Position numbers and translations under genes: made by a program
Part shown: one piece after another, positions 9,901-44,085 of the stretch
Numbering within the stretch: position 1 is the stretch's first letter
Layout: each line of letters begins with the position of its first letter
Notes under the pieces: generated by a model
What the model was told of the DNA's origin: nothing
Seen by the model: the letters and a program-made list of their open reading frames with translations, nothing else
The model's database searches: none
From: Argopecten irradians
Taxonomy: Eukaryota > Mollusca > Bivalvia > Pectinida > Pectinidae
Length of the DNA: 64,000 nt
Assembly (NCBI RefSeq): GCF_041381155.1
Contig: NC_091143.1
Span: forward strand, 23,463,695 to 23,527,694
Reading direction: 5' to 3'

Positions 9901-12900
9901 AACCTAAGTATTTGACTCTGTAGATAACTTAGCCTTTATGGTGACTGATAAATAATTATTTATTTTATCAATAGGGTTAGGTGGAGTACAACACTTGGAT
10001 CCTGATAAACAATTATTTATACAGATAAATAATCCTTTTTATTATGTCATGGTGCGTCGTCCGTCCGTCCGTCGTCCGTCCGTCCGTCAACATTTAATTT
10101 AAATCGCTACTAGTCATAGAGTTCCGCATGGATTGTGACCAAATTTGGCGATAAACATTCTTGGGGGAAGGGGAACAGAACTTGTATAAATTTTGGCTCT
10201 GACCCCCCAGGGGCAGGAGGGGCGGGGCCCAATAGGGGTAATAGAGGTAAATCCTATAAATCGCTACTTGTCCTAGAGTTCTACATGGATTGTAACCAAA
10301 TTTGGCCACAAACATCCTTGGGGGAAGGGGAACAGAACTTGTATAAATTTTTGCTCTGACCCCCCCGGAGGCAGGAGGGGCGGGGCCCAATAGGGAATTT
10401 AGAACCTGTATTCAGAACATTACTTGGCATTACAAACCAGGTGAGCGATACAGGCCCCCTTGGCCTCTTGTTTCATTATTAGGTTTAGACGGAGTACAAC
10501 ACTCAGATCCCAGTACCATGTTCCTTCTAGACCTATCCAATAGCATGCAGCAGCCTGGCAAGATAGACGAAATGAAAAGCAAGGTCAAAAGTATTCTGGA
10601 AGGTGAGCTTATCCTGACAGTTATCCCCTTTTCCTTTATTTTGGGTGGATTATAACCAAATGGGTCTACCACATTGTTTTAAAATACCATATGGCCAGTT
10701 TTAACAGTTTTAAATTTTCTCAATATTTTGGGGATCAATTTTTCACGACATTAGCAATTTCCTGTGAATTCGCAAAAATAACATAGTATACACCAGTTTA
10801 ACAAAAATACAAATCATTTTATATTTATGGAAACAAGACTAGTTGTACTCTGTTAGGGCCTGGCATCAAGATTCAGGTGCCCTATATATAGTAACCTGTC
10901 GGTCAATCCGGCCATCCATTGACATCATTTATTAATGGTATAAAGTGCCATGATATGTTTTTCTTGTTAACACAGTGGCAGGGAGTAAGCACTTTGGATG
11001 CCAGATGTCGGAGACCTTCGGTATAGCAGTCTTTGGTCACACTTCCAAAGTACTGTTATATCCTTCCAGAGACCTGGGTGCTGTACAGGAAACATTAGGT
11101 AACTTATCAAGTACCAGTGATATCTAAACTCTTCATTACAGCCATGCCTATCAGAGACAGCTTAAATCTATTGGTCAGTTTGTCAAGCTATACTTGTTTG
11201 AATTTTTCAATAAATTAACTGGCCAATTAACTTGAAATTTATTTAATTTGTTCACAAAATACAAAACATATTAGTCTAAGAATACTGTTAAAAATATCAA
11301 AGTTCAAGATTAGCATTTTGGCATGGTGAACATTTGTTAATACTATGAAGCAAGGATAATGCAGAAAAGTTGACAATTTTTTAAAATCTTACCTGCCTGG
11401 TATGTTTAAGTCAAGGTCAAGGTCATTTCAAAGGTCAATGTCATATTTTGTATTTCTTTTACTAAGTTTTAGGTCACCTGACCATAGGTCATGTTGACCT
11501 ATAAGATAGTCTTTTGTCATGCGTCGTCTGTTAACATTGTCTTGTGAACACGATAACTTTAAACTGGTAAATTTAAACCGAGCTAAATGAAACTTTGTAT
11601 GTAGACTAATATGGGAAAGATCTCAGACGAGTTTGGAAATCAGCTTTATTCAACTGTAATTTACGGAGTTATTGCCCTATGCACTAATAATTACTACTGG
11701 ACCTTGTGAATATGATAACTTTGAATAAATATGCACTCAGCTTCATGAAACTTTGTATTCAGGCTATAAAATTGGAATTATCTTGGACAAGTTAAAAAAT
11801 CGACATGATTAGATAATAACTTACAGAGTTATTTCCCTTTGCAATTACATATATTGAATGTTATGAACGTAATGACTTGAGTAAATATGCACAGAGCTTA
11901 ATGAAAATTTGTATGTAGACCTATTAGATGTGAGTAAATATGCACAGAGCTTAATGAAAATTTGTATGTAGACCTATTAGATGTATGTTCTATTTCGTGA
12001 ACAGATAGTGCAGGTTTAAATATATAATTCTCCTTGTCAAAACTCTTTAGTTGTTTTATGTTTATTAAGAAACCAGGAAAGAAACTTAAAATATTCTGCC
12101 ATAGACTTATTGGTTAATTCATGTTGTATATGATTTGGTGTTTCTTACAGATTCGCCAAACTTCCCTGTAGCTGCCGGACGATCTCCCCTAGCCCTGGGT
12201 CTGCTTCTTTGTACCTGTGTCTGGTTTACAGAAAAAGGTAATTGTAAACTCGTCTACATTCACAGTTTGTAATCTCTCGCCTGGAGTTATCTGGTACTGA
12301 TTTAATGTGCATTTTGTATTGCATTCAACTTCATAGATGTTTTTTTCATATTCTTTTCATAAAATTGTAAAAATATTTTGATGAATATGCAATAATTGGT
12401 TAAGAAATAATTAAAAAAACATATTGATGTATATTCACCCTTATTAATGTATTGATGTATTTTCACTCTTGATTAAATATTTAAGGAATAGATTTTTATA
12501 TTGTTGAGGTTATGAGGGTATAATGATAATGGAGCCCATGTAAATTTTTTGCCAGGGTTACATAATTTACATGGGCTCCATTATCATTATACCCTCAGAA
12601 CCTCAATAAAATAAACACCCATTCCTTCTATTTGCAGTTTTTCATGCAAGCAAATATTTTTTATTCTCGTGATAGTTGCATATTTTTTTTAAAATACCAA
12701 TATCTCTTGTCATCGTCAACAAATTCGATTGAACAGTTGATTGTGACTGAGTTATTCAAATGTTCCCACCAAAAATGGGGTCATGACCCACATTTCCCAC
12801 TGCATTGCTACACAAGTGGCTATTCACGTACCAACAGAATTATCGTATGTGTTGTACTAACATTAAACACTGATAATGATACCAGGTAATACTAGAAAGC

Positions 12901-15900
12901 ATGAGTCCATATGACGGTGAAAAGTGTAAATATTGATGTATCTTCATCTCTGATTAAAATATTTATGTATTTATATTCACCTTAATTAACATATTGATGT
13001 ATTTTCACCCTTTATTAACAGATTGATAAACATATATGTTCTTTCTTTATTAAATTCACAGGAACAGGAGGCACTGTCTGGTTACATGGCCGGAAAATCC
13101 GTCCACGCATTATCGTTATCAGTGACTTGGAGTTTAATGAAACAGCAACTGGAGGGGAAGCAGACGACACAGATGCTCTGGCCTTCGTATGTACGGTTTT
13201 TTGTATAGCATCATTCATCATCAATATTCCAGGCTTAGCTTAATTTCCTCTTCATGACATTTACTGAATCATCAGAATTACATAATAATATAGCATTGAA
13301 TCAGCATTGATTCAGTATTTATAGCTTATCTTATTAAAACTTTTAATGATATTTGACTACTCTCAAAACTACTGAACCAAATTCACAAAACTTTCTTTAG
13401 TAAAGATCAACCAAAATGGCATCGTCGGTGACCCACGGTAGATTGCACTACACTATGCTACACTTATCACCCATGGGACAGCTCGATCTCAGAGCACTGT
13501 TTAAATGATGTCACACTATAAATAGAAACCAATCAATATAACTTTTTTAAAATGAGAACTCCTCAGTTTGGAAGGAGAATATTTATGGATATCAATGTTG
13601 TTTATGTACAGCTTCTGTGAAGCATATGTTACCTCCAATCTCATTTGCTAAAAAATCGGCAGGAAAATCTGTCGGGGGGCCAATCAGATAACACTTGGCA
13701 AAAGCGATGCTCTGAGATCCAGGGGGTGATAAGTGTAACATAGTGTAGTGCAATCAACCATGGGTCACCGACGATGCCAAAATGGTAAATATATATCATG
13801 GTCCTCACCGATGACCATGATTGTCCCTGGTCCTATTAATTTTTGTTTGTTTGTTTGTTTGAAGTGTTAGATAATTATGGATAGAGTTAGAATGAATAAT
13901 CCCAGCTATTGATAAGACATATCTATTCTGCAGACAAATGATGTGCTGAATCAGCTGATTACAATAGCACTGAAACTGAAAGCTTTGGGAATACCAGTCT
14001 ATGTCATGTCAGTCGGAAATGGACCCCAGGTCAGTAATTGATCTTTCTATCAATAGTATAGGAGTCTAGTATCAGCAGATGTCACAACTCAATCGAGTCA
14101 TATCAAACACTTTAGATTTTTGATCAAAAGTTCCTCAATAAAACGGAACTCTGGTAATGTGCTGTTGATGATTTTTGCCTGATGTGTTATGACTGCTGAT
14201 ACAAACCCTGTCTTATAGGATTGTGCTGGAATTAAGGTCCAATTTTAATGAAGTGTGAACTGTTCTTTTTAAATAAGTTTGAACACAGATATTTATTTCT
14301 GATAATATTATCTTAATGATAACAAAGCATTTTGGTCTATACAGTTATACAAATGTGTTGATAAAAAATCATGGAGAGCAACTTACACAAATTTTAATTG
14401 ATCACATTTTTGAAAGTATAAAAAAAAAATTGCATGTGAGTACATTTGCTTTAAAGTATTAGGTTCAAAATTCAAGCTTATGTTTTTTAAGATATGTTAG
14501 GACTAATTGTGAGTTTACTGTGTACTAGTTGAATGACCTTCGCACAAGGTTGGGCCCCCCAATAAGGATGACTGGAGGGAAAATCATGGAGAAATCAGAA
14601 GAACTGCTAGGTCGACAGGCCTGGCAACAGGTAGGATTAATAGAATCTTACAGGGTTCTGCAAGTGGACAGGGATATCTCAACCCTAGTGAAAGTTGTTA
14701 TTTGTCAATATACCATGATTCAAAATACCATGCTACACCGCTAATATAACATAAAATTTTTGTGGTGTAGAATTTTTTGTTATTTTCTTGGTGGTTATGG
14801 AACCACAAATAAAAAAACGACAAATGATGTTTGATACATCTTTGTTATCTCTGTGTCACAAAATCAAGAAGCCAAAAATAATTCATGTTATAATATTAAT
14901 TAACAGTAAAAGGTATAAATACATTTAACACAAGTAGGTTAAAGATGGAGCATTATATAATTATATACAATCATGTAGTATTGGCCATGTTCATCTTGTC
15001 CCTTACAATTCTAATTTCATTTGGAAGTTTATCTTAAATTTTGTTATTATGGTATCAGAGGATTTCAAAAGTGACATTTTAGTGCATCCCTGAAACCCCC
15101 TAGCTAATTTACAATTTTTGGCAGAACTATACGATCACATTTGAGTTTTCTTTAGGCCTGTTAAAAGCAGATAACATTCCAGGTAGTTTTGTCACTATGT
15201 TAAACAGTCTTGCTAACTGAAACTTCTCTTACTTAAAGTACTGGCGTGGGGTTCCTTATCAGACCAAATGTCGAAGGTCAAGGTTACTGTAAATTATAAA
15301 TAGAAAATTTATTAGGTGTTATAACTTCACCTTTCTTCGGCCGATCAAGGTCAACTTTATGGTAAACTTTTATCGTGTGTTTCACAGATACTATCTTGTA
15401 ACATACTGGATATGCTGGATAATGTGTGGGGCCCTATGACACCCGAAGAAAAACTAGAAATCATCAAGTCATTCGCTGGTGAGGATCCTGAGGACAGGGT
15501 AAGTTGTTCTTGATGTCATTTTGACCCTGCAGGTAGGGCATTAGAATTGTACCTGCTACTCCATTGCATGATCGTAAAAGGCGACTAGATTTAGGATCTT
15601 ATCTTTTCTTTCTTAAGTTACTTTCTTCTTCCTGACATCTCCCTTGACACCACCTCACTTTTGGCCTTTTGTTGAATGCCCATCCCTGTAAAGAAGGATC
15701 TGGGTTCTGTCCCCAGGTCAAGACAAAACAAAGTCTGTAAAAGTGGCAGTTTTTGCTCCTGCTAAGCGCTTAGCATACAGGGAGTGGGATGACTGGTTTG
15801 CCCGTTGTCAGTATAATGTGACCAGTTGGGGTGTTTTACTTGGTGTCTTTGGTGGCATGCTTAAGTGATATAGCACTATAAAAATGGCAACAGTTTCACT

Positions 15901-18900
15901 ATACAAGAAGACACAACACGAACATACTGCAGTCTCCTAAAACACGCAACTCGCACTACACACACCCTGCACACTGCAAACGTAGGGAGGGGGGGGGGGC
16001 GTCCTTACATGACCCTGGCTATTGATAGGACATAAATTAAACAAACAATGCTCTGATTTACAGCTTTCATCATTTTAATAAAACAATTGTACAGATGTTA
16101 TGAAAGAACTATAATTGAAGCCCACTGCTTTCATGAAATGTATAGATCAATATTATCTGCATGCATCTATGCAGCATAAACCTTCAACTATGACTATGTA
16201 GCCTAGTCTCTCCTTAGATTTTGTGTGGAGAGTTAGATTTTATTGAAATGGCCATGTTGTAGTTTAATAGATATATATATACTGATAAAGATAAATTTAT
16301 TATTATATACATTGCATTAAATTAATAACAATAATGATATATTGTTTCTTCAACACTTGCAGGAAAGTATTAGAAAAATGATGGCAGAGCGAAAAGAGAA
16401 AGAAAGAAACGAGGAAGAAATCTGTTCCCTCTTGAGACATACAGGAGAACCAGGAGAACAACTGTGGAGAGAGTTCCCTATGGGTGACCGGGTACAAGAT
16501 ATACAGCATGTCAACACAGCAGGCACTATTGTGGGTCATTTACCAAACAGTGAGTGTTTCCTTAATTTCCAAGAGCATCCATGTCTTTCTATAGGTTTAG
16601 GTTGAGAGTAAATAAATATGCTTCTATTGAAGCTATCTGTTTAAAACTATCAGCTGAGAGGAAAGTGACCTTGGTAATGTAGTTTGAAATATGAAACGTT
16701 ATAGTAACAGTTATTGACTTTGTTTCCACAGGGAGAGTGTTGATACAGTGGGATAGTGGAAACAATGGCGAGTTTGCATCCTTAGAGATGTCACGATTGG
16801 TAATAGGTACAGCAAGAGACTGCCGAGAGTACGAAGGAGAGACCCACCGAGTTGGATCAAGGGTCCGTAGAGGTAGGTTTAATTTATTACTCATGATTGA
16901 CATTCTCGCAAATTAGTGCGTTGAAACAAATTGCTGTTGGTTTTCAGGGAATTGGGAAAGATTTATCACTACTGGAATATAGTCCATGAAAATGTCATGA
17001 ATTAGATTATAAAAAAGCAATGAAAAAATCATTGGCAAACCGCATGAAAATGGCCATGAAAAAGGTAAAGTAATTATGATCATAAAAAATCAATAAAATT
17101 TATATTTCATGCCCATTAAATTTTATGATCTTAATTTCATGGTCATGAAATTTTACAATAGCTTCATGACCATGATTTTAATTCAGTATTTTTATGACCA
17201 TGAATATATATATTTTTTCTGGCCGTGAACATGATTATGGCCATGAATAAGGTAAAGTAATCATGGGGTAGTTGAAAGTTCATGGTTTTTTCATTACTAA
17301 ATGAAATTATTTATGGCCCTGATATTTCTAACAACTGTTTCAAATCTTTATCAATGAAACTTCATCATGAAGAGAATTGTATTTTTAGGTCATCTGACCC
17401 AAAGGGTCAGGATGACCTATAGTCATCATGCACCGTCCGTCGTCGTCCGTCGTCGTCCGTCGTCCGCCGTCCGCCGTGCGTAAACTTTTCATTCAAACAA
17501 CTTCTTCTCAATAACCGTAAGGCCCACAGTACTCATATTTGGCCTGTAGCATACTTGGATGAAGGGCTATCAAAGTTGTTAAAATAAATGACCTTGACCT
17601 GCTTTCAAGGTCACATGGGTCAAATAGGCTAAATTCTTTGAACGACTTCTTCTAACTAACCAAAAGGTCCAGGGTACTCATATTTGGCCTGTAGCATGCT
17701 GGGATGAAGGGCTACAAAAGTTGTGAAAATTAGTGACCTTGACGTACTGTCAAGGTCACCAGGGGTCAAATAGGCTAAAATCTTTGAACAACTTCTTCTA
17801 ACTAACTGAAAGGTCCAGGGTGCTCATATTTGGCCTGTAGCATGCTGGGATGAAGGGCTACAAAAGTTGTGAAAATTAGTGACCTTGACGTACTGTCAAG
17901 GTCACCAGGAGTCAAATAGGCTAAGATCTTTGAACGACTTCTTCTAACTAACCAAAAGGTCCAGGATACTCATATTTAGCCTGTAGCATGCTGGGATGAA
18001 GGGCTACAAAAGTTGTGAAAATTAATGACCTTGACGTATTGTCAAGGTCACCGGGGGTCAAATAGGCTAAAATCTTTGAACGACTTCTTCTAACTAACCG
18101 AAAGGTCCAGGGTACTCATATTTGGCCTTTGGCATGCTGGGATGAAGGGCTACCAAAGTTGTGAAAATAAATAACCTTGACCTACTTTCAAGGTCACAGG
18201 GGTCAAATAGGCTCAAATCTTTGAACGACTTCTTCTAACTAACCAAAAGGTCCAGGGTACTCATATTTAGCCAGTAGCATGCTGGGATGAAGGGCTACAA
18301 AATATATGAAAACTAATGACCTTGACGTATTGTCAAGGTCACGGGGGGTCAAATAGGCTAAAATCTTTGAACGACTTCTTTTAACTAACCAAAAGGTCCA
18401 GGGTACTCATATTTGGACTGTAGCATGCTGGGATGAAGAGTTACAAAAGTTGTGAAACTTAATGACCTTGACATATTGTCAAGGTTACCGGGGGTCAAAT
18501 AGGCTAAAATCTTTGAACGACTTCTTTTAACTTACCGAAAGATCCAGGGTACTCATATTTGGCCTATAAAATGCTGGGATGAAGGGCTACCAAAGTTGTG
18601 AAAATGAATGACCTTGACCTACTTGGAAGGTCCCAGGGGTCAAATAGGCTAAAATCTTTGAACAATTTTTGTTAACTAACACAAAAGTCCAGGATACTCA
18701 TATTTTGCTGGTGGCATGCTGGGATGAAGGGTTACCATAGTTATAAAAATGAATGACCTTGACTTTCTTTCAAGGTCACAGGGGTCAATTAAGCTAAAAT
18801 CTTTTAACTACACCTTTTAATTAGCCAAAAGGTCCAGGGTATTCACATTTAGTCAATAGCATGCTGAGATAAAGGGCTATCAAAGTTGTGGAAATGAATA

Positions 18901-21900
18901 ACCTTGACCTACTTTCAAGGTTACGAGAGTCAAATATTCCAAAATCTTGAATTTTGAACTTCTTCTCAAGTTCTAGCAGTGTGATTAAGCTGAAACCTGC
19001 ATGAAATGATCCTGACATGGTCCCGACCAAGTGTTGTTATATTTTATGTTGATCCAAAATCCAAGATGGCTGCCACAGATGATCCAAGATGGCTGCCACA
19101 GATGCCATCTTGAAAACACATTTGAACTTCTTCTCAAGTTCTACCAGTGCAATTTAACTGAAACTTGAAACATGAAATGCGACTGACATGATCTTGTCAA
19201 AGTGTTGTTATATCTCTGGTTGATCCCAGATTGGAGATGGCTACCATGACACGATATCTAATTATTTTCCTATACAGCTATTGCCAAGATAGTCAGATGA
19301 CCGTTAAGGCCCTTGGGCCTCTTGTTCATGAATAAACTTCAAGGCCATGATAAATTTCCATCTTCTCCATCTGCCTTTAATTATAATTCACTACAGTAAC
19401 TACACATGGAAACCATGAGAAAAATGATATTACCAAGAAACTTGAACATGTATTACAAGCTACATTAGCTTGCTACATAGCATTATATATATATATAAAT
19501 TTATATCCCTAATCTGCCCAATGCATTATCAATAGATTCATAATATTCCCGTAACAATCGCAATACTTCTATAAAAGTGGTCGTTTCTGTTTAGTGTTCA
19601 GCGAAATGGGAGTGGGGCGACTAATTCACCCATTGTCAGTACAATATAAGCAGATGGGGTGTGCTGGTTTGGTGTCTTCGGTGCCATACTTCAGTAATAT
19701 CACACTATATAAAAGGGCTATTACAAGTAGACACAACACAAATCTACCCCAGTCTCACAAAAGGAAGCACCTCACACTTCACACATGGAACACAGGTCAT
19801 TACCTTGGCTGTTAATAAGACAATAGGAATTCATTTTTTTAACCAAAACACCAATTGTAAATTGTCTATATGGTCATGCATGCTTTAAATACAACGTTAC
19901 TATGCATTTCTGTTTTTCTCCAGTTATTCCTGGAAGTGTACCACATGAAACTCGTTTAGATGACACAGATGTGGGCACTGTGGTGACTTTGTCTGCCCTA
20001 CAGCCGAATGTAGTTTATGTGAGTATGGACATGTAGTTTATGTGAGTATGGACATGTAGTTTATGTGAGTATGGAAATGAAATTAATGTGAGTATGGAAA
20101 TGTAGTTAATGTGAGTATGGAAATGTAGTTTATGTGAGTATGGAAATGTAGTTTATGTGAGTATGGAAATGTAGTTTATGTGAGTGTGGAAATGTAGTTT
20201 ATGTGAGTATGGAAATGTAGTTTATGTGAGTATGGACATGTAGTTTATGTGAGTGTGGAAATGTAGTTTATGTGAGTATGAAAATGTAGTTTATGTGAGT
20301 ATGGAAATGAAATTAATGTGAGTATGGAAATGTAGTTAATGTGAGTATGGACATGTAGTTTATGTGAGTATGGAAATGTAGTTTATGTGAGTGTGGAAAT
20401 GTAGTTTATGTGAGTATGGAAATGTAGTTAATGTGAGTATGGACATGTAGTTTATGGGAGTATGGAAATGTAGTTTAAGTGAGTATGGAAATGAAATTAA
20501 TGTGAGTATGGAAATGTAGTTAATGTGAGTATGGAAATGTAGTTTATGTGAGTATGGAAATGTAGTTTATGTGAGTGTGGAAATGTAGTTTATGTGAGTA
20601 TGGAAATGTAGTTTATGTGAGTATGGAAATGTAGTTTATGTGAGTATGGAAATGTAGTTTATGTGAGTATGGAAATGTAGTTTATGTGAGTATGGAAATG
20701 TAGTTTATGTGAGTATGGATATGTAGTTTTTGTGAGTATGGACATGTAGTTTATGTGAGTATGGAAATGTAGTATTTGTGGGTATGGACATGTAGTTTAA
20801 TGTAGTTTATGTGAGTATAGAAATGAAGTTTATGTGAGTACAGACATGTAGTTTTTGTGAGTATGGATATGTAGTTTGATGTAGTTTATGTGAGTATAGA
20901 AATGAAGTTGATGTTAGTATGGAAATGTAGTTTATGTGAGTATGGAAATGTAGTTTATGTGAGTATGGACATGTAGTTTATGTGAGTATGAAAATGTAGT
21001 TTATGTGAGTATGGTAATGTAGTTTTTGTGGGTATGGACATGTAGTTTAATGTAGTTTATGTGAGTATAGAAATGAAGTTTATGTTAGTATGGAAATGTA
21101 ATTTATGTGAGTATGGAAATTTAGTTTATGTTATTATGGAAATGTAGTTTATGTAAGTATGGAAATGTAGTTTATGTGAGTATGGTAATCTAGTTTTTGT
21201 GAGTATGGACATGTAGTTTAATGTAGTTTATGTGAGTATAGAAATTAAGTTGATGTAAGTATGGAAATATAGTTTATGTGAGTATGAAAATGAAGTATAT
21301 GTGAGTATGGAAATGTTGTGTATATGAGTATGGAAATGTAGTTTATGTCAGTATGGAAATGTAGTATATGTGAGTATGGTAATATGTAGTTTATGTGAGT
21401 ATGAAAATGTAGTTTATGTGAGTATGGTAATATGTAGTTTATGTGAGTATGAAAATGTAGTTTATGTGAGTATGGAAATGTAGTTTATGTCAGTATGGAA
21501 ATGTAGTTTATGTGAGTATGGAAATGTAGTTTATGTGAGTATGGAAATGTAGTTCATATGAGTATGGATATGTCCTTGACAATGTTGTACAGTCTACAAA
21601 TTTACAGATGGACAGACACACAATCTGATTCCAGTATATATCCCCCTCCCCCAGAAAAGCTAAGGGGGATATACTGGAATCAGGTGTCTGTCTGTCCATC
21701 TGTCTATCTGCAGTCTGTGCAATTTTGTCCGGTGAACTCCTCCTAAACAACTTAACAGATTTTGATAAAATGTAAAATTTGGTACACAGAACCTTGACAT
21801 AAAGGGGAGTTGAGTAAACTGTATAGGGTTCTGCAATGTCCCCTATTTATGGAGTTATTACTAAATTTGTGCAGCGGAGGGTATTAGTCAACATATTTAT

Positions 21901-24900
21901 TGCTCGCTAAATGATGATGTCATAATATTAACTTGCAAGTGCAGGTAAAATGTGTAATTATGCAAAATAGGCATTATTGTTAATTTAAAATGTGTAAAAT
22001 TAATATTTGTATCCCAACCTTTGCAATTATCTAAACCTGGATTTTCAAATTTTTTTCTCTCTCTAAAAGGAGTATTTAGAGACATTAAAGTTTTAAAGTG
22101 AACTAAAGTAAATGTAACAGTGTAATTTGTATAAACTAGATGTCACTGGGCCAGCATATATATTTGGCCGGTATAGCAAGGTCTCCAGATTATACAGGGT
22201 CCCAGTTTTAATTACTATAGGTTAAGGTAGACCGTCCCTTCTGGTTTCCTCTCATAGATTTCGTTCATTTTTTGATATTTTGATTTTAGGTATACCCTGA
22301 TCACAAAAACCGCATAAAAATCATATGTCACCGAGTTAATTTTTCTTCCAGGGTTGTTTAAAGATATGTACAAATGACTTAACAATCCAGATTTTAAGGA
22401 TTTTTAAACAAATAATATTTCCTCCCTGTGGCTTCCCTTAACATATAAATAATATGCCTGTAGCATGTTCATACCTTCAGTAGGTGATATAGAATTCATA
22501 ACTATATCAAATAAGCTGGGTTTTCCACAATCAAACGAAATATCGTTATTTTAAAATTAAGTCCGGACCCAATTTTAGTGAAAAATTGCATCAAAATAGT
22601 CATGTTTTTCTTTTTCTTTTTATCTGAAAAAATGATCCCAAGAAAAATCGATTTTTTAGAATTTCCATGAAGATTGGCTTATTTGCAATACGAAAAGCCA
22701 ATAAAAAAAGTATACCTCACTATCAAATGTTTCATCTTGATGTATGGAAATGTAGTTTATGTGACATGATATGTGATGTGGAAATTTGCCGGCATATGCA
22801 TGAGTTTTGGAAATGTAGTTTAAGCGTTTGGATAATGTATTAATGTAGTTGTTTATGTGATATCCTGTTGAGTGTGGAACATGTAGTTTATATGAAAAAG
22901 TTTCAATGAAATAAAGTATGACATGTAGTTTATTGAGTATTGAAATTAGTTTGTTGTTGAGAATATGAAATTTTGAATATGGAAAATGTTCTAATTATGA
23001 ATGGACATGTTGTTTAAATATAGGATGGAAATGTAGTTTATTTGTATGAATATTGTTTTAAGTAAAATGAAATTAATGTAGTATGTATATGTGTGATATA
23101 AATGATTATGTCAATCTGAGTACCAGTATGAGTATAATGTGTTTATGTGAGTGTTGTAATTTAGTTTTATTGTAGAAAAAATATTTGTAGTTGGAAATTT
23201 GTTTATGTTTTAGAAAAAGGTAAATATTTATATTTAATTTCTTTTTAGCCCAAACAGTGGGTTTTAATTTGTTCTCTGCATCTTTTCCTTGTAATGTAAA
23301 AACTGATTCTGAGAAATATGCCTTACTAATTACAATTTTTTATAGACAATGGATTTAAATTCTCAGTGAATTTTTGTTGCTATTTGTTTTTGCTTATGAT
23401 AAATCTGATAATAAAAAGTCTTTTTTGGCTAGCATTAATCTTATCAGTCAGATTACCTAAAACACAATTTTTTTAAAGGAAAAAATGCATGTTTAAAGAA
23501 GTTCAAGATGGTCAAAAGCTGAAATCTACATTATAATATAATTTCAACAAACCCCTTAAAAGTATATGTCAAAGGCAGACTTTACTGTTTATCAAATAAC
23601 TTTAACTTTGATGAGCTTGGAAATCATAGTTAATGTTTTATGGAAATGTAGTTTATGTTTAATGAAATAAAAGTAAAAATGATATTAAATGTTAGTTTTG
23701 TCTAAATAGTAAATCTTTTATATGGAAATGTAAATTTTGAAATTTGAAATGTAGGAAATAAAATATGGTTGATGTAGTTTATATTGAGTATAAAAATACT
23801 ACAGTTTCATGGAAAAAGCCTTTAAATGAGTATGTAGTAAAAATCCACCCAATATCAAGTGAGTTTATGTGATATGGATATTTTATGTACCGGTATGTCA
23901 CAGTTTGATGAGTATAATGTAGTTTATGTAGTACTAGAAATGGGTAGATATAAGTATTGAGTTTGTCATGGCCTGACGTAATAATGAATTTATGTGAGTA
24001 TGTAATGTCAGGATTTTGTCGGGACGTCAACAAAAGGGTGAGTATGCTGGATTCTAGAACACATGTAATTTGTTTTTGTGAGTATAAAATGTAGGTTTAA
24101 AATCTTTATGTGATAAGAAGTGAGTCTGTTAGATTTGCGATCATCTGAAATGAAATCTTATTGAAACTGGTTTTCAAAATACTAATTTTTGCTTTCCAAG
24201 GCTTGCAAGAAATGTAAAAAGTATTTTTAGAATTTCGTTTCATAAAATCTCAGATGAAATAAACACTTGTTTAAGATCCTGCATGGTATTTCAAGATTCA
24301 TGATTTCTTCTGGTTGTTCCGGATAGTGGACAATGGCAGACATGTAGTTGAAATGTAGTTTTATGTGAGTATGGAAATGTAGTTCATATGAGTATGGGAT
24401 TGCATATGAGTATGGATATGTCCCTTGACAATGTTGTACAGTCTACAAATTTACAGATGGACAGACACACAATCTGATTCCAGTATATATCTCCCTCCCC
24501 CAGAAAAGCTAAGGGGGATATACTGGAATCAGGTGTCTGTCTGTCCATCTGTCTATCTGCAGTCTGTGCAATTTTGTCCGGTGAACTCCTCCTAAACAAC
24601 TTAACAGATTTTGATAAAATGTAAAATTTGGTACACAGAACCTTGACATAAAGGGGAGTTGAGTAAACTGTATAGGGTTCTGCAATGTCCCCTATTTATG
24701 GAGTTATTACTAAATTTGTGCAGCGGAGGGTATTAGTCAACATATTTATTGCTCGCTAAATGATGATGTCATAATATTAACTTGCAAGTGCAGGTAAAAT
24801 GTGTAATTATGCAAAATAGGCATTATTGTTAATTTAAAATGTGTAAAATTAATATTTGTATCCCAACCTATGCAATTATCTAAACCTGGATTTTGGCCGG

Positions 24901-27900
24901 TATAGCAAGGTCTCCAGATTATACAGGGTCCCAGTTTTAATTACTATGAATTAAGAAAGAAAATGTCATATTTTTCCAGATTAGACAAGTGCTTAAATTG
25001 ATATAACAAGTTATAACTGTATATAACCATTTCTAATAAATCTTTCAACTTTTGAAGGTTGCTTGGGATAAATGTGGGATACGCCGGCATTCATGTTTTG
25101 ATATCTGCAGGTAAGCGTTTTGATTAATATCAGTTGTTACTTTTATTTCCTGTGACACAGTAATATGCAAGTGCTCAATATATAAATCATGACTGATTGT
25201 TTTTTTGTTTTTTGTTGTTAAGCAGATAACTTGAATATATGTTCTAATTAGATAATTCTTGTTTTCAATATAGGAGGTCTTTGCTGACTATATTGTTGTT
25301 AACAAAACTGTAAAATGGATCAAGTTTGATAATTCAATCTGAGTACCAGGGTATGTGTGTAATTTTGTATTATGTTAAAACATTTTCTTTTCAGGTTTAT
25401 AGAAAAAGGTAAATATTTATTTAATTTCTTTTTAGCCCAAACAGTGGGTTTTAATTTGTTCTCTGCATCTTTTCTTGTAATGTAAAACTGATTCTGAGAA
25501 ATAGGCTTACTAATACAATTTTATATAGACAATGGATTTAATTCTCAGTGAATTTTGTTGCTATTTGTTTGCTTGATGATAAATCTGATAAAAAGTTTTT
25601 TGGCTGGCACTAATCTTATCAGTCAGATTACCTAAAACACAATTTTTTTAAAGGAAAAAATGCATGTTTAAAGAAGTTCAAGATGGTCAAAAGCTGAAAT
25701 CTACATTATAATATATTTCAACAAACCCCTTAAAAGTTGTCAAAGGCAGACTTTACTGTTGTCAAATAACTTTAACTTTGTGAGCTTGTTAGAATCATAG
25801 ATTAGATGTTTCAGCAAATAAAGTTTATTAAATGATAGTTTTGTCTAAATAGTAAATCTCCTTATGCCAAATAAATTTTGAAATTTGAAATTAAGGAAAT
25901 AAAATTGGGTTGATTAAATTTCTATTGCTTAAAAATACTACAGTTTTCATATCAAAGGCCTCTAAATCCTCATGCAATCCACCCAATATCAAGTGACTTC
26001 GCCCGTATAATATTTATGCGTACCGGTATGTCACTTGATAAAAAATTAATATACTAGAACTATGGGCTAGATATGTTCAGCTTGATGTCATGGCCTGACG
26101 TAAATAAGCATTGAAGTGACGTCAGGATTTAAGGACGTCATGACAAAAGGGTGGTGTCTGCTGGAGTCTAGCAACACATTTTGTTCCCTTAAATTTGGCC
26201 TGACGTAAATAAGCATTGAAGTGACGTCAGGATTTAAGGACGTCATGACAAAAGGGTGGCGTCTGCTGGAGTCTAGCAACACATTCTGTTCCCTTAAATT
26301 GTAGGTTGTAAAATCTTTATGTGATAAGAAGTGAGTCTTTAGATTTGCGATCATCTGAAATGAAATCTTATGAAACTGGTTTCAAAATACTAATTTTTGC
26401 TTTCCAAGGCTTGCAAAAAATGAAAAGTATTTTTAGACTCGTTTCATAAAATCTCAGATGAAATAAACACTTGTTTAAGATCCTGCATGGTATTTCAGAT
26501 GACATGTACGACTATGATTTCTTCTGGTTGTTCCGGGATAGTGGACAATGGCAACCATTTCCTGTGACCAATTCCAAAAATATTGAAGAAAAGTATGGAA
26601 AATGCCGAACCATGAATTTAACGCTTGGAGAAAAAGGGTTAGTAGAAAATTTCTTCTGCAGTCTCAATTACTTAAGGCAAGGACAGACAGAGCTATAGAC
26701 AAAATCTAAGTTTTAAATTATTACAAAGTTACATCACTCTTTCTCGGAAAGTACTGATTAAGAAGTGACTTTTCTGAAATTTCATTAGAACAAAGACCTT
26801 TATTAACACCTCCCAGCGATCTGATTAAAAGTGGACTTAGTAGCGAGGTGGTCATAATTCTGAAGTTGACCAGATTCTATCCGTTTATAAAATCTCAATC
26901 TCTTCTATTTTACTTCTAAACTGCCTTTGGTCCCTATGTAGAATGTATAGGAAGAAGGAAAGCAAGGAAAAAATCAGAAGAAAATAAAATCATACTGTGA
27001 ACCAACTTTTCCTTGAATTTCACTATCCAGGTGCATTCACGATCCAAGTACATTTGTGATCCAAGTACATTTATGACCCAAGTACATTCACGATCCAAGT
27101 ACATTCATGATCCAAGTAAATTCACAATCCAAGAACATTCGCGATCCAAGTACATTAGCGATCCAAGTACATTCACAAAGGTTTATTTCAGCATTTTAGT
27201 ATTTCCAGTCAATTTCATTTTCGCAAATGTTAACTTTCAGGAACTTGTATTGAAATGGAAGTCGTGAAATTAAGTAGCTGCAAAAGAAAGTTGGTTTACA
27301 GTATTGAGACTATTCAGTGATGGACTCCTTGTAACACTATATGTATCTACATTTATATACTAGACAAAGATTCCTGCAGCAATACCTACAGTGTTTTCTC
27401 CTCTCATTATTTAGATAAATTTTATTTGAATTAGATCTTTATTAATGATACATTTATTCAATTCAGATGAGCTATACATTAAATTTAGCTTAAATCAAAT
27501 CCCACCTGGCAATGATGCTATTTCTACACTTCAGAATCAGTTAACTATAAAATGTCAGAGATGGTTTCTGATTGGCAGATAATTCTATTCATATATGGTA
27601 ATGGTGTTGCTATCTGAATATGACTTGTTATATTTAAATATCTACCTTGTATGATCTTCATGGTAGATTCTCATCCAGATAAGTAGACATTACTATTGGT
27701 AACAGATTTGTATTTCAATCAGATAGACAAGCTACATATGATCTATCACCATGGTAACGATGTTTTAATTGATGACATTAATATTCATTTTAAAGATACC
27801 GGTTGATGTTCAAAGACATGAAGATGAGACTCACCAGTAATCAAATCCCAGGCGCTTTTAATCCTGTTTTCCGACAAGGTATCAAAATAATGTACTTTTT

Positions 27901-28124
27901 TATGTTCCTTATATAATAATAGCAGTACTCATTACCAGTTTAACAATTTTAAAATATTAAAAATAGATATAAAACTTATCTGATAAAAGAAACAGACTTG
28001 AGGATAAATCATAAAGATTGATATTTGTTTCAGATATGTAAATTGCAACTTTTCCTTTATTTAACATTATAATTTACAAAAGAATTAACATTAGCTATAT
28101 TTTTTAGCTGTGCTGCCAACATGA
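3822..28124 (+). CDS. Gene 1: vWA + two MIB/HERC2-like + WWE-like domain protein (20 coding exons)
   Basis: The spliced product is 1207 residues, assembled from 20 exons whose phases all agree. Residues 1-370 are a charged, Ser/Lys-rich N-terminal part. About 396-467 is a Cys/aromatic-rich segment (CCACGLDEPD at its start) that I do not recognise. 560-690 is acidic and disordered. About 705-895 is a von Willebrand A domain with MIDAS residues D727-x-S729-x-S731, S803 in the usual Thr position and D842 in VISDLEF. 966-985 is a short charged helix. About 1004-1055 and 1064-1124 resemble MIB/HERC2 (SH3-like) modules, with VLIQWDSG and VVYVAWDKCG strands. About 1131-1200 resembles a WWE domain (FFWLFRDSGQW, then NIEEKYG). 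There is no signal peptide or membrane segment, so it is probably intracellular. MIB/HERC2 and WWE domains are typical of ubiquitin and ADP-ribose pathways; no RING or HECT domain is seen, so the function is open. Confidence 0.82.
3911..4062 (+). repeat. 67-bp tandem repeat that includes the exon 1 donor
   Basis: About 2.3 copies of a 67-bp unit start at 3911, 3978 and 4045. The first copy contains the last eight exon bases and the working donor (AAGAGATG then GTGAGATG). The second and third read AAGAGATG then ATGAGATG, with the donor G at +1 changed to A. The rest of the unit is nearly identical (a run of A, then tcttgatcaagtcatga). Confidence 0.9.
5006..6015 (+). CDS. Gene 1 coding exon 2 (long charged exon)
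   Basis: Acceptor ttgtcatttcag; 336 codons after completing the split Glu codon; ends AAG before GTAGTT, phase 0. It begins EIFPRHSFIIKFKDEYSC, in frame with the long open stretch from the Met at 5068, which is therefore internal and not the start. The second half has Lys/Ser-rich short repeats (EKSRGTDKS, EKSRGTEKS) and is probably disordered. Confidence 0.85.
6231..6371. repeat. Near-perfect palindromic hairpin element
   Basis: Two arms of about 64 bases are inverted around a spacer of about 12 bases: the left arm begins caaaatcaaaagttttgtc and the right arm ends in its near-exact complement. It lies in the intron between coding exons 2 and 3 and looks like a fold-back MITE. The low divergence of the arms suggests recent insertion or arm homogenisation. 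Confidence 0.85.
6753..6830 (+). CDS. Gene 1 coding exon 3
   Basis: 26 codons, phase 0 on both sides: acceptor ctttaatcag, donor GTAAGT. Encodes RNLRNVETSRFMKRED followed by YPILGSEQEL. An alternative acceptor two bases downstream would break the frame. Confidence 0.75.
7513..7728 (+). CDS. Gene 1 coding exon 4 (Cys-rich start)
   Basis: 72 codons, phase 0 on both sides: acceptor tctttacag, donor GTAAGT. It opens ECCACGLDEPDVTARSRKYL and continues with a helical stretch and aromatic residues (IYFFNKYHYYD). No named domain was recognised; the fold may be a small alpha-helical module. Confidence 0.8.
7850..8330 (+). repeat. Dispersed repeat family A, split by a family B insertion
   Basis: 7850-8003 matches the left half (ctgtaaggaagactcagggttct) and 8222-8330 the right half (gtcagtatataatgt, ggggtcttcggcg) of the element that is complete at about 15530-16047. 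The two halves are separated by a copy of repeat family B, so this is a nested insertion in the intron between coding exons 4 and 5. Family A is probably a short non-autonomous element; no tRNA-like promoter boxes were established. Confidence 0.65.
8005..8218 (+). repeat. Dispersed repeat family B, copy 1
   Basis: Runs from ttttaattgctaaaagtaaac to attagcaaaatgcccaaaat and actatccatagagtgag, closely matching a second copy at about 48120-48455 in the same orientation within gene 2. It is inserted inside a family A element. No protein is encoded. Confidence 0.7.
9067..9796 (+). CDS. Gene 1 coding exon 5 (acidic linker before vWA)
   Basis: Acceptor tatattgcag, donor GTAATT; 243 codons plus one base. 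It encodes residues 468-710: LAVAGLNDGKGVNLLDFSQ, a disordered polar region, a strongly acidic Asp/Glu/Ser stretch (about 9560-9620), then the segment leading into vWA (WNVNLGDNGQKCLYAALKG). Confidence 0.85.
9975..10010 (+). pseudogene. Decayed duplicate of the first vWA exon
   Basis: Preceded by an acceptor-like tatcaatag, this stretch reads GLGGVQHLDPDK in the same phase as the genuine exon at 10483, which reads GLDGVQHSDPST. Over 31 aligned bases the two differ at about seven positions, all of them transitions. Beyond that the copy loses the MIDAS Asp. A repeat insertion lies between the copies. It looks like an exon duplicate no longer able to code. Confidence 0.6.
10035..10478 (+). repeat. 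Dispersed repeat family C, short copy
   Basis: It starts with a cgtccgtccgtcgtccgtc tract and holds two tandem units of about 185 bases (tagagttc..catggattgt.accaaatttgg, then ggcaggaggggcggggccc). It ends gtgagcgatacaggccccc / ttggcctcttgttt. The same terminal motif occurs at 28895-28932 and in related form at 19297-19327. It sits directly before the acceptor of coding exon 6. Confidence 0.75.
10483..10602 (+). CDS. Gene 1 coding exon 6 (vWA strand 1, MIDAS)
   Basis: Encodes residues 711-750 including FLLDLSNSM. D727, S729 and S731 form the DxSxS metal-ion-dependent adhesion site. Acceptor cattattag, donor GTGAGC, phase 1 on both sides. Confidence 0.85.
10976..11098 (+). CDS. Gene 1 coding exon 7 (vWA)
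   Basis: Residues 751-791, with the central vWA strand FGIAVFGHTSKVLLYP. Acceptor ttgttaacacag, donor GTAACT, phase 1 on both sides. Confidence 0.85.
11465..12000 (+). repeat. Dispersed repeat family C fragment with a 53-bp tandem duplication
   Basis: Begins ttttaggtcacctgaccata, like the left end of the long family C element at 17385. It continues with diverged tandem units (gaacacgataactttaaact, tatgcact.agcttcatgaaact). Its end carries a direct duplication of about 53 bases (gagtaaatatgcacagagct ... acctattagatgt, at about 11880 and 11933). Just upstream (11410-11440) are overlapping AGGTCA direct repeats. Confidence 0.65.
12151..12237 (+). CDS. Gene 1 coding exon 8 (vWA)
   Basis: Residues 792-820. 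GRSPLALGLL holds S803 where vWA domains usually have the third MIDAS residue (Thr). Acceptor tttcttacag, donor GTAATT, phase 1. Confidence 0.82.
12502..12608. repeat. Hairpin element with about 42-bp arms
   Basis: The arms ttgttgaggttatgagggta... and its complement ...taccctcagaacctcaataa flank a loop of about 20 bases, and both arms contain aatttacatgggctcc or its complement. It is a fold-back repeat in the intron between coding exons 8 and 9. Confidence 0.8.
13062..13186 (+). CDS. Gene 1 coding exon 9 (vWA)
   Basis: Residues 821-862 include PRIIVISDLEFNETATGG, the vWA strand ending in D842, the fourth MIDAS position. Acceptor aaattcacag, donor GTATGT; it ends in phase 0. Confidence 0.85.
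13418..13778. mobile_element. 361-bp MITE with TIRs and AAAAT target duplication
   Basis: The terminal inverted repeats begin GGCATCGTCGGTGACCCA on both ends and remain similar for about 80 bases (ttgcactacactatg.tacacttatcaccc). AAAAT is present on each side (13413-13417 and 13779-13783). There is no coding capacity. It lies in the intron between coding exons 9 and 10. Confidence 0.85.
13934..14029 (+). CDS. Gene 1 coding exon 10 (end of vWA)
   Basis: 32 codons, phase 0: TNDVLNQLITIALKLKALGI then PVYVMSVGNGPQ, the last helix and strand of the vWA fold. Acceptor ctattctgcag; the donor GTCAGT is slightly weaker than its neighbours. Confidence 0.85.
14529..14630 (+). CDS. Gene 1 coding exon 11
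   Basis: 34 codons, phase 0: LNDLRTRLGPPIRMTGGKIM then EKSEELLGRQAWQQ. The acceptor tgtgtactag has a poor pyrimidine tract; donor GTAGGA. This links vWA to the following helical segment. Confidence 0.75.
15388..15498 (+). CDS. Gene 1 coding exon 12
   Basis: 37 codons, phase 0: ILSCNILDMLDNVWGPMTPE followed by EKLEIIKSFAGEDPEDR. Acceptor tgtgtttcacag, donor GTAAGT. Amphipathic helices, no named domain. Confidence 0.82.
15530..16047 (+). repeat. Dispersed repeat family A, most complete copy
   Basis: Runs from gtacctgctactccattgca and tgatcgtaaaaggcgactag, through ttctgtccccaggtcaagac and ccgttgtcagtataatgtga, to the tail ctggctattgataggacata and an A-rich end. Partial copies are at 7850-8330, 19563-19827 and 33418-33620. 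A run of about ten G is at 15990. Confidence 0.75.
16363..16549 (+). CDS. Gene 1 coding exon 13 (first MIB/HERC2-like module begins)
   Basis: 62 codons plus one base: a charged helix (ESIRKMMAERKEKERNEEEI), then FPMGDRVQDIQHVNTAGTIV, the opening of an SH3-like MIB/HERC2 module. Acceptor acacttgcag, donor GTGAGT. Confidence 0.85.
16732..16872 (+). CDS. Gene 1 coding exon 14 (MIB/HERC2-like)
   Basis: Residues 1028-1074: RRVLIQWDSGNNGEFASLEM closes module 1 with the conserved VxxQWDxG strand, and YEGETHRVGSRVRR begins module 2. Acceptor gtttccacag, donor GTAGGT. Confidence 0.85.
16970..17330. repeat. Low-complexity catgaaaa / atggccatgaa repeats
   Basis: Degenerate, partly inverted repetition of short words such as catgaaaatggccatgaa, ttcatggtcatgaaa and gaccatga. 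This is an AT-rich simple-sequence region in the intron after coding exon 14, with no coding potential. Confidence 0.6.
17385..19327 (+). repeat. Long family C element with about ten 147-bp tandem units
   Basis: The left end is taggtcatctgacccaaagg followed by a cgtccgtcgtccgccg tract; the right end is gtcagatgaccgttaaggcc then gggcctcttgtt, so the termini are partly inverted (GGTCATCTGAC / GTCAGATGACC). The core repeats a unit of 146-148 bases about nine to ten times (ggtccagggtactcatattt .. gcatgctgggatgaaggg .. gaacgacttcttctaactaa). Most units carry TGACCTTGAC facing GTCAAGGTCA. No protein is encoded. Confidence 0.85.
19563..19827 (+). repeat. Dispersed repeat family A, partial copy
   Basis: Matches the right part of the 15530-16047 element: aaaagtggtcgtttctg, ccattgtcagtacaatataa, gtgtcttcggtgccatactt, and the tail ccttggctgttaataagac. 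It ends about 100 bases before the acceptor of coding exon 15. Confidence 0.7.
19924..20018 (+). CDS. Gene 1 coding exon 15 (MIB/HERC2-like; donor seeds the minisatellite)
   Basis: Residues 1075-1106, VIPGSVPHETRLDDTDVGTV through LSALQPNVVY, phase 0 at the end. The acceptor tttttctccag is strong. The last 12 exon bases plus the donor (AATGTAGTTTAT then GTGAGTATGG) are exactly the core of the tandem array that follows. Reading through the first donor meets a TAG after five codons. Confidence 0.85.
20007..21570 (+). repeat. 23-bp minisatellite built on the 5' splice site
   Basis: About 68 head-to-tail copies of a 23-base unit, GTAGTTTATGTGAGTATGG plus AAAT or ACAT. The first copy overlaps the end of coding exon 15 and its donor, so almost every unit carries a perfect TAT|GTGAGTATGG 5' splice site. 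Variants (aaattaatgtgagtatgg, tagttttt) recur at intervals of eight to ten units, which suggests higher-order expansion. The right third is more diverged. Confidence 0.95.
21575..22230 (+). repeat. Segment D copy 1, duplicated at 24413-24946
   Basis: Starts after the minisatellite at ccttgacaatgttgtacagt and ends at tacagggtcccagttttaat. It recurs at 24413-24946 nearly base for base, lacking only about 120 bases (roughly 22036-22160). It contains a hairpin (21605-21705; arms agatggacagacacacaatc and its complement) of a dispersed type ending ggtgaactcctcctaaacaa. Confidence 0.85.
22231..22737. other. Intronic sequence, probable insertion
   Basis: About 500 bases (gaccgtcccttctggtttcc onward) with no counterpart after the second copy of segment D. 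Its opening resembles a dispersed repeat, but only one copy is in the window. No coding potential. Confidence 0.4.
22738..24412 (+). other. Blend of minisatellite and the exon 16 to exon 18 region; likely assembly artefact
   Basis: The order of landmarks is that of 25058-26560: gccggcat of coding exon 16 near 22790, tttagaaaaaggtaaatat of the microexon near 23210, about 430 bases nearly identical to 25408-25860, the gacgtc repeat near 24000, and tcttctggttgttccgg of coding exon 18 near 24308. Everywhere, extra bases spelling atgtag, ttatgtgag or tatggaaatg are inserted or substituted. Reading frames are destroyed. A real duplicate would mutate at random; here the changes spell the minisatellite. 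Confidence 0.8.
24413..24946 (+). repeat. Segment D copy 2
   Basis: Near-identical repeat of 21575-22230, beginning gtcccttgacaatgttgtac, with an internal deletion and one changed dinucleotide. It is followed by the unique lead-in to the genuine coding exon 16. Its presence supports a false or real duplication of about 2.8 kb here. Confidence 0.85.
25058..25110 (+). CDS. Gene 1 coding exon 16 (MIB/HERC2-like strand)
   Basis: 17 codons plus two bases: VAWDKCGIRRHSCFDIC. It joins exon 15 to give NVVYVAWDKCG, the characteristic core strand of the module. Acceptor acttttgaag, donor GTAAGC. Splicing directly to coding exon 18 would give an immediate TGA; the microexon resolves this. Confidence 0.85.
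25395..25408 (+). CDS. Gene 1 microexon of 14 nt (coding exon 17)
   Basis: Flanked by ttttcttttcag and GTAAAT. It completes the split Arg codon, encodes Phe-Ile-Glu-Lys and leaves one base that makes Asp with the next exon. Its length (3n+2) is exactly what is needed to restore frame between coding exons 16 and 18, giving ICRFIEKDDMYDYDFFW. No other candidate exon was seen in this intron. Confidence 0.78.
26092..26301 (+). repeat. 105-bp tandem duplication containing CRE-like palindromes
   Basis: Two nearly identical units start at 26092 and 26197 (ggcctgacgtaaataagcat ... tctagcaacacatt). Each contains the palindrome TGACGTCA and a nearby GGACGTCATG. The blended copy at about 23965-24065 shows only one unit, so the duplication may be allelic. 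Confidence 0.85.
26499..26637 (+). CDS. Gene 1 coding exon 18 (WWE-like domain)
   Basis: Encodes residues 1129-1174: DFFWLFRDSGQWQPFP, then NIEEKYG, the Trp-containing strands and the I-E-x2-Y helix typical of WWE domains. Acceptor atggtatttcag; donor GTTAGT (a less common GTT start). It ends with two bases of a split Gly codon. Confidence 0.82.
27030..27178 (+). repeat. 17-bp minisatellite, about nine copies
   Basis: Unit gatccaagtacattcac with single-base variants (acatttgt, acatttat, aaattcac). It lies in the intron between coding exons 18 and 19 and contains no splice motif. Confidence 0.9.
27796..27878 (+). CDS. Gene 1 coding exon 19 (end of WWE-like domain)
   Basis: Residues 1175-1202: GYRLMFKDMKMRLTSNQIPG then AFNPVFRQ. 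The YxxxFxxMxxR pattern matches the last strand of WWE domains. Acceptor attttaaag, donor GTATCA; one base left over. Confidence 0.78.
28108..28124 (+). CDS. Gene 1 last coding exon (AVLPT, stop)
   Basis: Acceptor tatattttttag. The split codon gives Ala, then VLPT and TGA. No clear AATAAA is found in the first two kilobases beyond the stop, so the transcript end is undefined. Confidence 0.6.
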
Positions 28125-28221: not shown

Positions 28222-28745
28222 ATGGCTTGAAATAGTCTCACCAAGACTGAATTGTCTGGCTTCAGTGATGTCACCAAGACTGAATTGTCTGGCTTCAGTG
28301 AAGTCACCAATACTGAATCGTCTAGCTTCAGTGATGTCACAAAGACTGAATTGTCTGGCTTCAGTGAAGTCACAGACGTACAAAGACTGAATTGTTTGGC
28401 TTCAGTGATGTCACCAAGACTGTATTATTTGGCTTCATTGATACCTCCAACGCAGAATTGTTTGGCCTCAGTGATGTCACCAATACTGAATTGTCTGGCT
28501 TTAGTCATTTCACCAAGACTGAATTGTCTGGCTTCAGTAATGTCACCAAGACTGAATCGTCTGGCTTCATTGATAATTCCCAAGACTGAATTGTCTGACT
28601 TCAGTATTTCACCAAGACTGAGTTGTTTGGCTTCATTGAGTTCACCAAGACTGAATTGTCTGGCTTCGTAATACCTCCAAAACTGAATTGTTTGGCTTCA
28701 GTATTGTCAACAAGGCTGCATTGTAAAACTAATTTTGCAGGCTTC
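28222..28745. repeat. 33-bp minisatellite, about 15 copies, in the presumed 3' UTR of gene 1
   Basis: Unit tcaccaagactgaattgtct + ggcttcagtgatg. Because 33 is a multiple of three, both strands stay open for long stretches, giving 11-residue repeats such as SGFSDVTKTEL on the plus strand. No start context, splice site or domain supports translation, so I treat it as non-coding satellite. Confidence 0.85.
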
Positions 28746-34144: not shown

Positions 34145-34700
34145 CCACAACGTATGGAACGCCATAGCTGCCTTAAGACTAGATGTTTTATTGCATCACG
34201 TCTCCATGTTATAGCATCGTGTCACCATGTTATAGCATCGTGTCACCATGTTATAGCATCGTGTCAACATGTTATAGCATCGTGTCACCATGTATAGCAT
34301 CGTGTCACCATGTTATAGCATGAGGTCACCGTATTATTGCATCATGTCACCATATTATAGCATCGTGTTACCATATTATAGCATGATGTCACCATGTTAA
34401 AACATGATGTCACCGTGTTATTGCATCGTGTCACCATATTATAACATGATGTCACCGCGTTATTGCATCGTGTCGCCATGTTATAGCATGATGTCACCGT
34501 TTTATTGCATCGTGTCACCATTTTATAGCATCGTGTCACAATATTATTGCATCGTGTCACCAAGTTATAGCATCGTGTCACCGCGTTATTGCATCGTGTC
34601 GCCAAGTTATTAAGACGTTTTCTAGTAAGACTACTCGGAAAGCATTTGGATTTTACCATACAGTCAAGCACAAAGACGATCCCGATCACCTGCTAGGCCC
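34145..34700 (+). repeat. Satellite-bearing element E, left copy
   Basis: Flank atggaacgccatagctgcct, then about 20 copies of a 21-bp unit (tatagcatcgtgtcaccatgt with cattattg and gatgtc variants), then a flank containing ttaagacgttttc, ggaaagcatttggattttac and gacgatcccgatcacctgc. The same flanks and unit occur in reverse complement at 43150-44085. The unit of seven codons keeps frames open on both strands but is not credibly coding. Confidence 0.9.
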
Positions 34701-43149: not shown

Positions 43150-44085
43150 TAATTTCCGGCTAGCAGATGGGTGATCGGGATCGTCTTTTCGCTTGACTGT
43201 AAGGTAAAATCCAAATGCATTACGAGTAGTCTTAATAGAAAACGTCTTAATAACTAACTTGGCTACACGATGCTATAACCTGGTGGACATGATGCTATGA
43301 CATGGTGACACGATGCAATAATACGGTGACATAATGCTATAACATGACGACACGATACAATAACTCTGTGACATCATGCTATAACATGGTGACACGATGC
43401 TATAAACATGGTGACACGATGCTATAAACATGGTGACATGATGCTATGATATGGGGACACGATGCTATAACATGGTGACACGATGCTATAACATGGAGAC
43501 ACTATGCAATAATACGGTGACATAATGCTATAACATGACGACACGATACAATAACTCTGATATGATGCTATGTCATGGTGACACGATGCTATAACATGGT
43601 GACACGATGCAATAATATGGTGACACGATGCTATAACATAGGGACGTGATGCAATAAAACGGTGACATCATCATGCTATAATATGGTGACACGATGCAAT
43701 GATATGTTGACACGATGCTATAACATGGTATCTCAATGATATAACATGGTGACACGATGCAATAACACGGTGACATCATGCTATAACATGGTGACACGAT
43801 GCAATCACACGGTGACATCATGCTATAACATGGTGACACGATGCAATCACACGGTGACATCATGCTATAACATGGTGTCACGATGCTATAACATGGTGAC
43901 ACGATGCTATGACATGGTGACACGATGATATGACATGGTGACACGATGCTGTAACATGGTGACACGATGCTATAACATGGTGACACTATTGCTATGACAT
44001 GGTGACACGATGCTATGACATGGTGACGTGATGCAATAAAACATCTAGTCTTAAGGCAGCTATGGCGTTCCATAACAACGCCGTA
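43150..44085 (-). repeat. Satellite-bearing element E, right copy (inverted)
   Basis: Reverse-complement arrangement of 34145-34700: flank gtgatcgggatcgtctttt, about 37 copies of the 21-bp unit (acacgatgctataacatggtg), and outer flank aaaacatctagtcttaaggc + agctatggcgttccata. Here the array is roughly twice as long as in the left copy. Confidence 0.9.

Follow-up and report, generated by a model that had tools for sequence, protein, structure and literature searches.

A scallop gene for a protein with VWA and WWE domains has the genuine donor of one of its exons embedded in a tandem array, as in the ABCA7 and IFI6 kind of VNTR. This raises the question of which donor is chosen when dozens of near-identical copies follow one another, and of what happens to the message when a later copy is taken. 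We address it here in a stretch of 64,000 nucleotides of Argopecten irradians DNA, which we call the window as a whole; the array and the parts of the gene described below lie on its forward strand.

The array and the exon end that it contains

The array is a minisatellite with a period of 23 that extends from 20007 to 21573 and amounts to 68.2 copies, with 83% matches and 4% indels according to TRF. The initial annotation had counted about 68 copies of 23 bp and ended them at 21570; the count stands, and the end is corrected to about 21573. The unit reads AATGTAGTTTAT followed by GTGAGTATGGA, and in unit 1 the first of these is the exon end (20007-20018) and the second is the donor. Decomposition of the array into units gave 71 rows, partial units included, with 19 exact consensus units, and it recovered GTGAGT 54 times, GTRAGT 56 times and the identical 15-nt context TTTATGTGAGTATGG in 27 copies. 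Among the 65 full-length units that were scored, the register of 23 bp is exact throughout the first 34, which show a mean of 0.91 differences per unit, and the last 31 show a mean of 1.55; the partial units fall in this second part, where three of 10 bp and one of 13 bp break the register of the 3' half. GT is kept in 62 of these 65 units and GTRAGT in 55, which means that the description of nearly every unit as a candidate donor holds for the dinucleotide and is generous for the hexamer.

When the exact 22-mer AATGTAGTTTATGTGAGTATGG was searched in the 846-Mb assembly, at least 22 matches were found, and all the 22 that were listed fall within the array on the + strand, while its reversed control gave 0 matches in the same assembly. 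This search takes exact matches only and its repeat counts are lower bounds; within these limits, the unit looks locally produced and does not look like part of a dispersed satellite. A dispersed satellite that would have been inserted by chance at the exon end could be suggested by the other tandem arrays, which are common in the window, but we give it hardly any credence, both because each of the 22 matches listed for the unit core falls in the array (exact matches only) and because unit 1 holds 12 nt of coding sequence that specify residues kept by two further scallop species.

The gene was modelled over 10483-28124 as 15 exons in a single frame, with GT at 14 of the 14 donors and AG at 15 of the 15 acceptors. 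In this model, the exon that the initial annotation numbers as coding exon 15 (19924-20018, 95 nt) ends in ALQPNVVY, its last 12 nt being the exon half of unit 1, and the first, canonical donor GTGAGT (20019-20024) comes right after it. Beyond the intron lie coding exon 16 (25058-25110, 53 nt, VAWDKCGIRRHSCFDIC), a 14-nt microexon (25395-25408, FIEK), which is required if the reading is to pass in frame from exon 16 to the exons of the WWE domain, and the last three exons (26499-26637, 27796-27878 and 28108-28124), which carry the WWE domain (Pfam, 2.4e-6) and the stop codon.

Three proteins came out of a protein search that scored only the 8000 candidates with the most words in common. P0001, 1183 aa long and 99% identical, comes from a contig no longer than 3902 nt, whereas its matches span 5005-28124 of the window, and we therefore infer that it derives from spliced RNA. 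It joins the first donor to 25058 and contains the residues of the microexon. P0002, from Pecten maximus, and P0003, from Ylistrum balloti, show 62% and 56% identity over 98-99% of the query, which fits an origin of the window in a scallop or near kin. Across the boundary, LSALQPN(VV/II)Y followed by VAW is read in 3 of the 3 proteins, and the splice at the first donor fits P0001 as well as the two orthologous proteins. The proposal that the array includes a real exon-intron junction is thus borne out by a frame-consistent model and by the join seen in P0001, whose transcript-like reading also upholds 20018 as the exon end, a point on which the initial annotation depended. Since the boundary residues are conserved in P0001-P0003, the 12 exon bases of the unit are old coding sequence that the array copied, and not the reverse. 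Judging from these proteins, the exon end predates the array, and we retain the claim that the array grew out of the junction, given the conservation of these residues in Pecten and Ylistrum. Use of the first donor in RNA is attested by one transcript-like protein, P0001, which differs from the window at several residues, and the animal that it comes from may have a different array or no array; evidence of this type also has to be read with the knowledge that an assembly that collapses repeats would hide isoforms retaining array units.

Pfam finds VWA_2 and WWE in the gene model. For a cut-off of 21.1 bits, WWE (PF02825) scores 28.2 bits in the model, 27.5 in P0001 and 21.2 in P0002, and it falls just below in P0003, with 19.7 bits. 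The label of MIB/HERC2-like module, which had been given to the region where the truncated protein would stop, finds no support: MIB_HERC2 (PF06701) has no Pfam match up to E = 1 in the model or in P0001-P0003, and 0 of the 28 places listed by a profile search of the genome are within the window. The 224-residue C-terminal part gave 0 matches up to E = 1 among solved structures.

Donor strength and the use of later donors

The first donor forms a U1 duplex of -7.4 kcal/mol, and this same value is found for 51 of the 55 other GTRAGT sites, including 35 array donors that share its 12-base context; over all 56 sites, the values range from -6.9 to -7.6 kcal/mol. Within the modelled part of the gene, it is the ninth of 14 donors in U1 duplex. 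Strength fails to set the first donor apart from the rest of the array. As for the later donors, the hexamer shows no significant reduction in variability relative to the rest of the unit (13 changes, 20.6 expected, P = 0.15), in a test that is weak, with 23 columns, and that points slightly towards conservation. The columns give no clear sign, at this P value and with so weak a test, that selection would have kept the later donors for use.

Reading on past the Y of the exon end gives V-S-M-D-M and then a stop, the in-frame TAG at 20034-20036, which is met with any later donor and also with intron retention. It had been predicted that any donor but the first adds an in-frame TAG, and we find that it is the same stop each time, any later donor leading to one 1087-residue reading (1082 residues to the exon end, plus 5). 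The loss of the WWE domain that was predicted along with it is supported, the stop preceding the WWE exons. The further suggestion that array length could tune a truncated isoform does not hold for the product, as the stop sits in unit 2 for every later donor and the truncated protein is independent of array length; only its amount could vary. A premature stop upstream of exon junctions is expected to trigger NMD. Five junctions lie downstream of 20034-20036, the last one at least 294 nt away by the exon lengths of the model, so that the later-donor mRNA would be expected to undergo NMD.

We consider it probable that the array is a neutral-to-mildly-costly junction minisatellite, in which the first donor is used and slips give the NMD-prone 1087-residue reading. 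A tandem duplication across the exon-intron junction of the VWA-WWE protein gene would have seeded it, selection on the protein would hold the exon half of unit 1, and the remaining array would have grown and homogenised within the intron. The first donor would usually win by its position, which closes a normal-sized exon of 95 nt beside the exon's own signals. The later donors, with their equal U1 pairing, could be used at a low level, perhaps mostly the second or the third, and their mRNA, with its premature stop, would be degraded or would give one 1087-residue protein without the WWE domain. Special regulation would be unnecessary. Work on competing equal donors favours the sites that are closer to the acceptor, which is the opposite of the use of the first donor in P0001 and counts against this explanation.

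Donor-containing minisatellites in human genes

According to De Roeck et al. 2018 (PMC5954066), intron 18 of human ABCA7 carries a 25-bp VNTR, and the donor of exon 18 is the first GT of this VNTR. When the second donor is used, one unit stays in the mRNA, with a frameshift and a premature stop; this retention occurs at a low level and is unaffected by VNTR length, which goes from ~300 bp to >10 kb. In the same work, longer VNTRs go with increased skipping of exon 19 and decreased expression, and isoform shares and disease association were measured (PMC5954066); PMC6660495 repeats the ABCA7 work. The human array resembles that of the scallop in its similar unit size (25 vs 23 bp), in coming directly after an exon and including its donor, in having a donor in each unit, in the premature stop that follows use of the second donor, and in being hard to assemble and genotype. 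It differs in that it begins at the donor GT, whereas the scallop unit takes in 12 nt of exon sequence as well, and in that its length, isoform and disease data were measured, whereas the scallop array is known from sequence, and belongs to another gene and another phylum with another unit. The statement that splicing must pick the first among dozens of sites thus describes something that has a measured human parallel and is not unprecedented, and the choice need not be regulated.

ABCA7 also bears on whether array length, or a splicing factor, could shift the use of later donors or the skipping of the 53-nt exon and thereby set the level of the full-length protein. The same premature stop reached from every later donor would make an effective off-switch, the donor hexamer varies slightly less than the other columns, though the difference is not significant, and in ABCA7 the longer forms of a donor-containing VNTR of similar unit size went with skipping of the exon that follows and with reduced expression (PMC5954066), which leaves room for an effect of array length. 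We nevertheless hold such tuning to be unlikely, in view of later donors that are without significant conservation (P = 0.15) and of the retention of one ABCA7 unit, which did not vary with VNTR length (PMC5954066). That array length itself would set the slipping past the first donor, or the skipping of the 53-nt exon, as a heritable and hypervariable rheostat of the dosage of the WWE protein, we take as a long shot. If true, it would operate in a wild and highly polymorphic animal, through a self-copying 5' splice site.

The minisatellite of human IFI6 (6-16) has a unit of 12 bp. It lies in exon 2 and provides multiple donors, two downstream units being used as donors to give three mRNAs (Turri et al. 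1995, cited in PMC4526556). Like the scallop array, this minisatellite places several donors at a single exon end. It is unlike it in that the donors of downstream units are used in RNA, whereas the later donors of the scallop are only candidates, and in that its isoforms encode proteins, whereas the 23 bp unit of the scallop has a stop in unit 2. A regulated isoform switch, by which later donors would deliberately give a stable 1087-residue protein without WWE, could draw on this precedent of repeat-unit donors that make isoforms (PMC4526556) and on the convergence of all later donors on one product with the tail V-S-M-D-M. We judge it very unlikely: the stop lies upstream of the five junctions already mentioned, so that NMD would be expected, P0001 is the full-length form, and the IFI6 isoforms are described as encoded proteins, whereas the length of the scallop unit is not divisible by 3 and the unit contains a stop.

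In the human polyubiquitin gene UBC, dual-specific splice sites are found in tandem repeats (PMC10809524). Here too a tandem array carries splice sites and offers several equal candidates, but the UBC repeats are coding and each site can serve as a donor or as an acceptor, whereas the scallop array repeats donors only, in an intron. Other candidates were considered: PMC3039753, PMC6692358 and PMC2572611 are less close parallels. A literature search on minisatellites in scallop introns or splicing returned no paper, and the titles listed by the other searches mention no scallop or other mollusc.

The scallop array is a molluscan case of the known donor-containing minisatellites, and the situation is not new; what is particular to it is that its unit spans the exon-intron boundary and that every slip brings in a stop. 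This suggests that such minisatellites are not confined to humans. The locus also offers a natural experiment on the choice that the spliceosome makes among dozens of near-identical 5' splice sites, in which strength is near constant and position varies, and in which each wrong choice is marked by an insertion of roughly +23n and by the same stop codon.

The assembled intron and the other repeats of the window

Comparison of the window with itself showed that 21498-22045 is repeated at 24350-24894 (97.6%) and that 22163-22226 matches 24892-24955, and it also aligned 23208-24064 with 25397-26179 (80.7%) and 23969-24338 with 26196-26553 (82.4%). In a base-by-base alignment, 22742-24338 tracks ~25050-26553, exon 16 included, with array fragments between its bases. 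Array 12-mers cover 13.0% of 22742-24338 vs 0.0% of 25040-26560; in the controls, coverage does not exceed 3.0% for 50 shuffles or 0.8% for 8 other stretches. The stretch from 22742 to ~24349 is best read as a two-haplotype consensus artefact, that is, a base-level blend in which exon 16 and intron 16 are interleaved with array fragments and which would not be the real sequence of any single molecule. Interleaving by single bases is the pattern expected if reads of two haplotypes had been misaligned and merged into one consensus, and it is not the pattern expected of duplication followed by mutation.

A real and ancient duplication of exon 16 and intron 16, invaded by array units within an intron of truly ~5 kb, would also have most of 22742-24349 align to ~25050-26553. 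It appears most improbable to us, as the alignment over 22760-24070 has insertions at 83 places, totalling 255 bases, and deletions at 32 places, totalling 57, vs 67 substitutions, as 8-mers of the array account for 165 of these 255 extra bases vs 333 of the 1056 shared ones, and as the adjoining pair of flanks shows 2 differences in 466 aligned bases. These k-mer and insertion tests replaced a permissive two-parent alignment of the blend, which scored 1475 with the array unit and intron 16, 1385-1468 with 8 shuffled units and intron 16, and 1267-1329 with shuffled or other partners in the place of the intron; as shuffled units score nearly as well, it was rejected as a test of the array component and supports the intron 16 component only. 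The collinearity of the array fragments of the blend with the order of the array is partly consistent and partly not. The blend also leaves a garbled second exon 16.

Around the blend, 21574-22741 would be the 3' flank of the array in one allele, with a shared part (21574-22226) and a part without counterpart in the second copy (22227-22741), and 24350-25057 would be the array end and the 3' flank, up to the acceptor, in a second allele. The two flanks differ by an indel of ~118 bp and in the sequence that follows (~22227-22741 vs 24956-25057), and they may be two alleles. Since an array end precedes both copies, the second array being lost in the blend, both alleles, if they are alleles, would carry the array. 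The real intron is probably ~2.2-2.7 kb long, vs 5,039 bp as assembled (20019-25057), because it would consist of the array plus either ~0.64 kb (24422-25057) or ~1.17 kb (21574 to ~22742). The intron that had been annotated from the exon end at 20018 to 25058 therefore keeps its junction, but 20019-25057 should not be taken at face value, as it appears to contain the blend. This serves as a warning that, at such arrays, a consensus may interleave two haplotypes into a plausible but false intron sequence. The stretch 22227-22741, which follows one flank copy and not the other, is perhaps an allele-specific insertion.

Other repeats are present in and around the gene. TRF reports a 146-bp tandem repeat of 10 copies (17496-18948) in the intron just upstream of the 95-nt exon, and a 33-bp array of 14.5 copies (28238-28724) that starts ~110 bp past the stop codon of the gene. 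An 18-bp repeat of 4.7 copies (5659-5743), KSRGT-like, lies within a long coding exon of the VWA-WWE gene. Finally, two 21-bp arrays, at 34188-34610 and 43265-44039, belong to one family in opposite orientation, 319 of the 761 15-mers of the reverse-complemented second array being present in the first.
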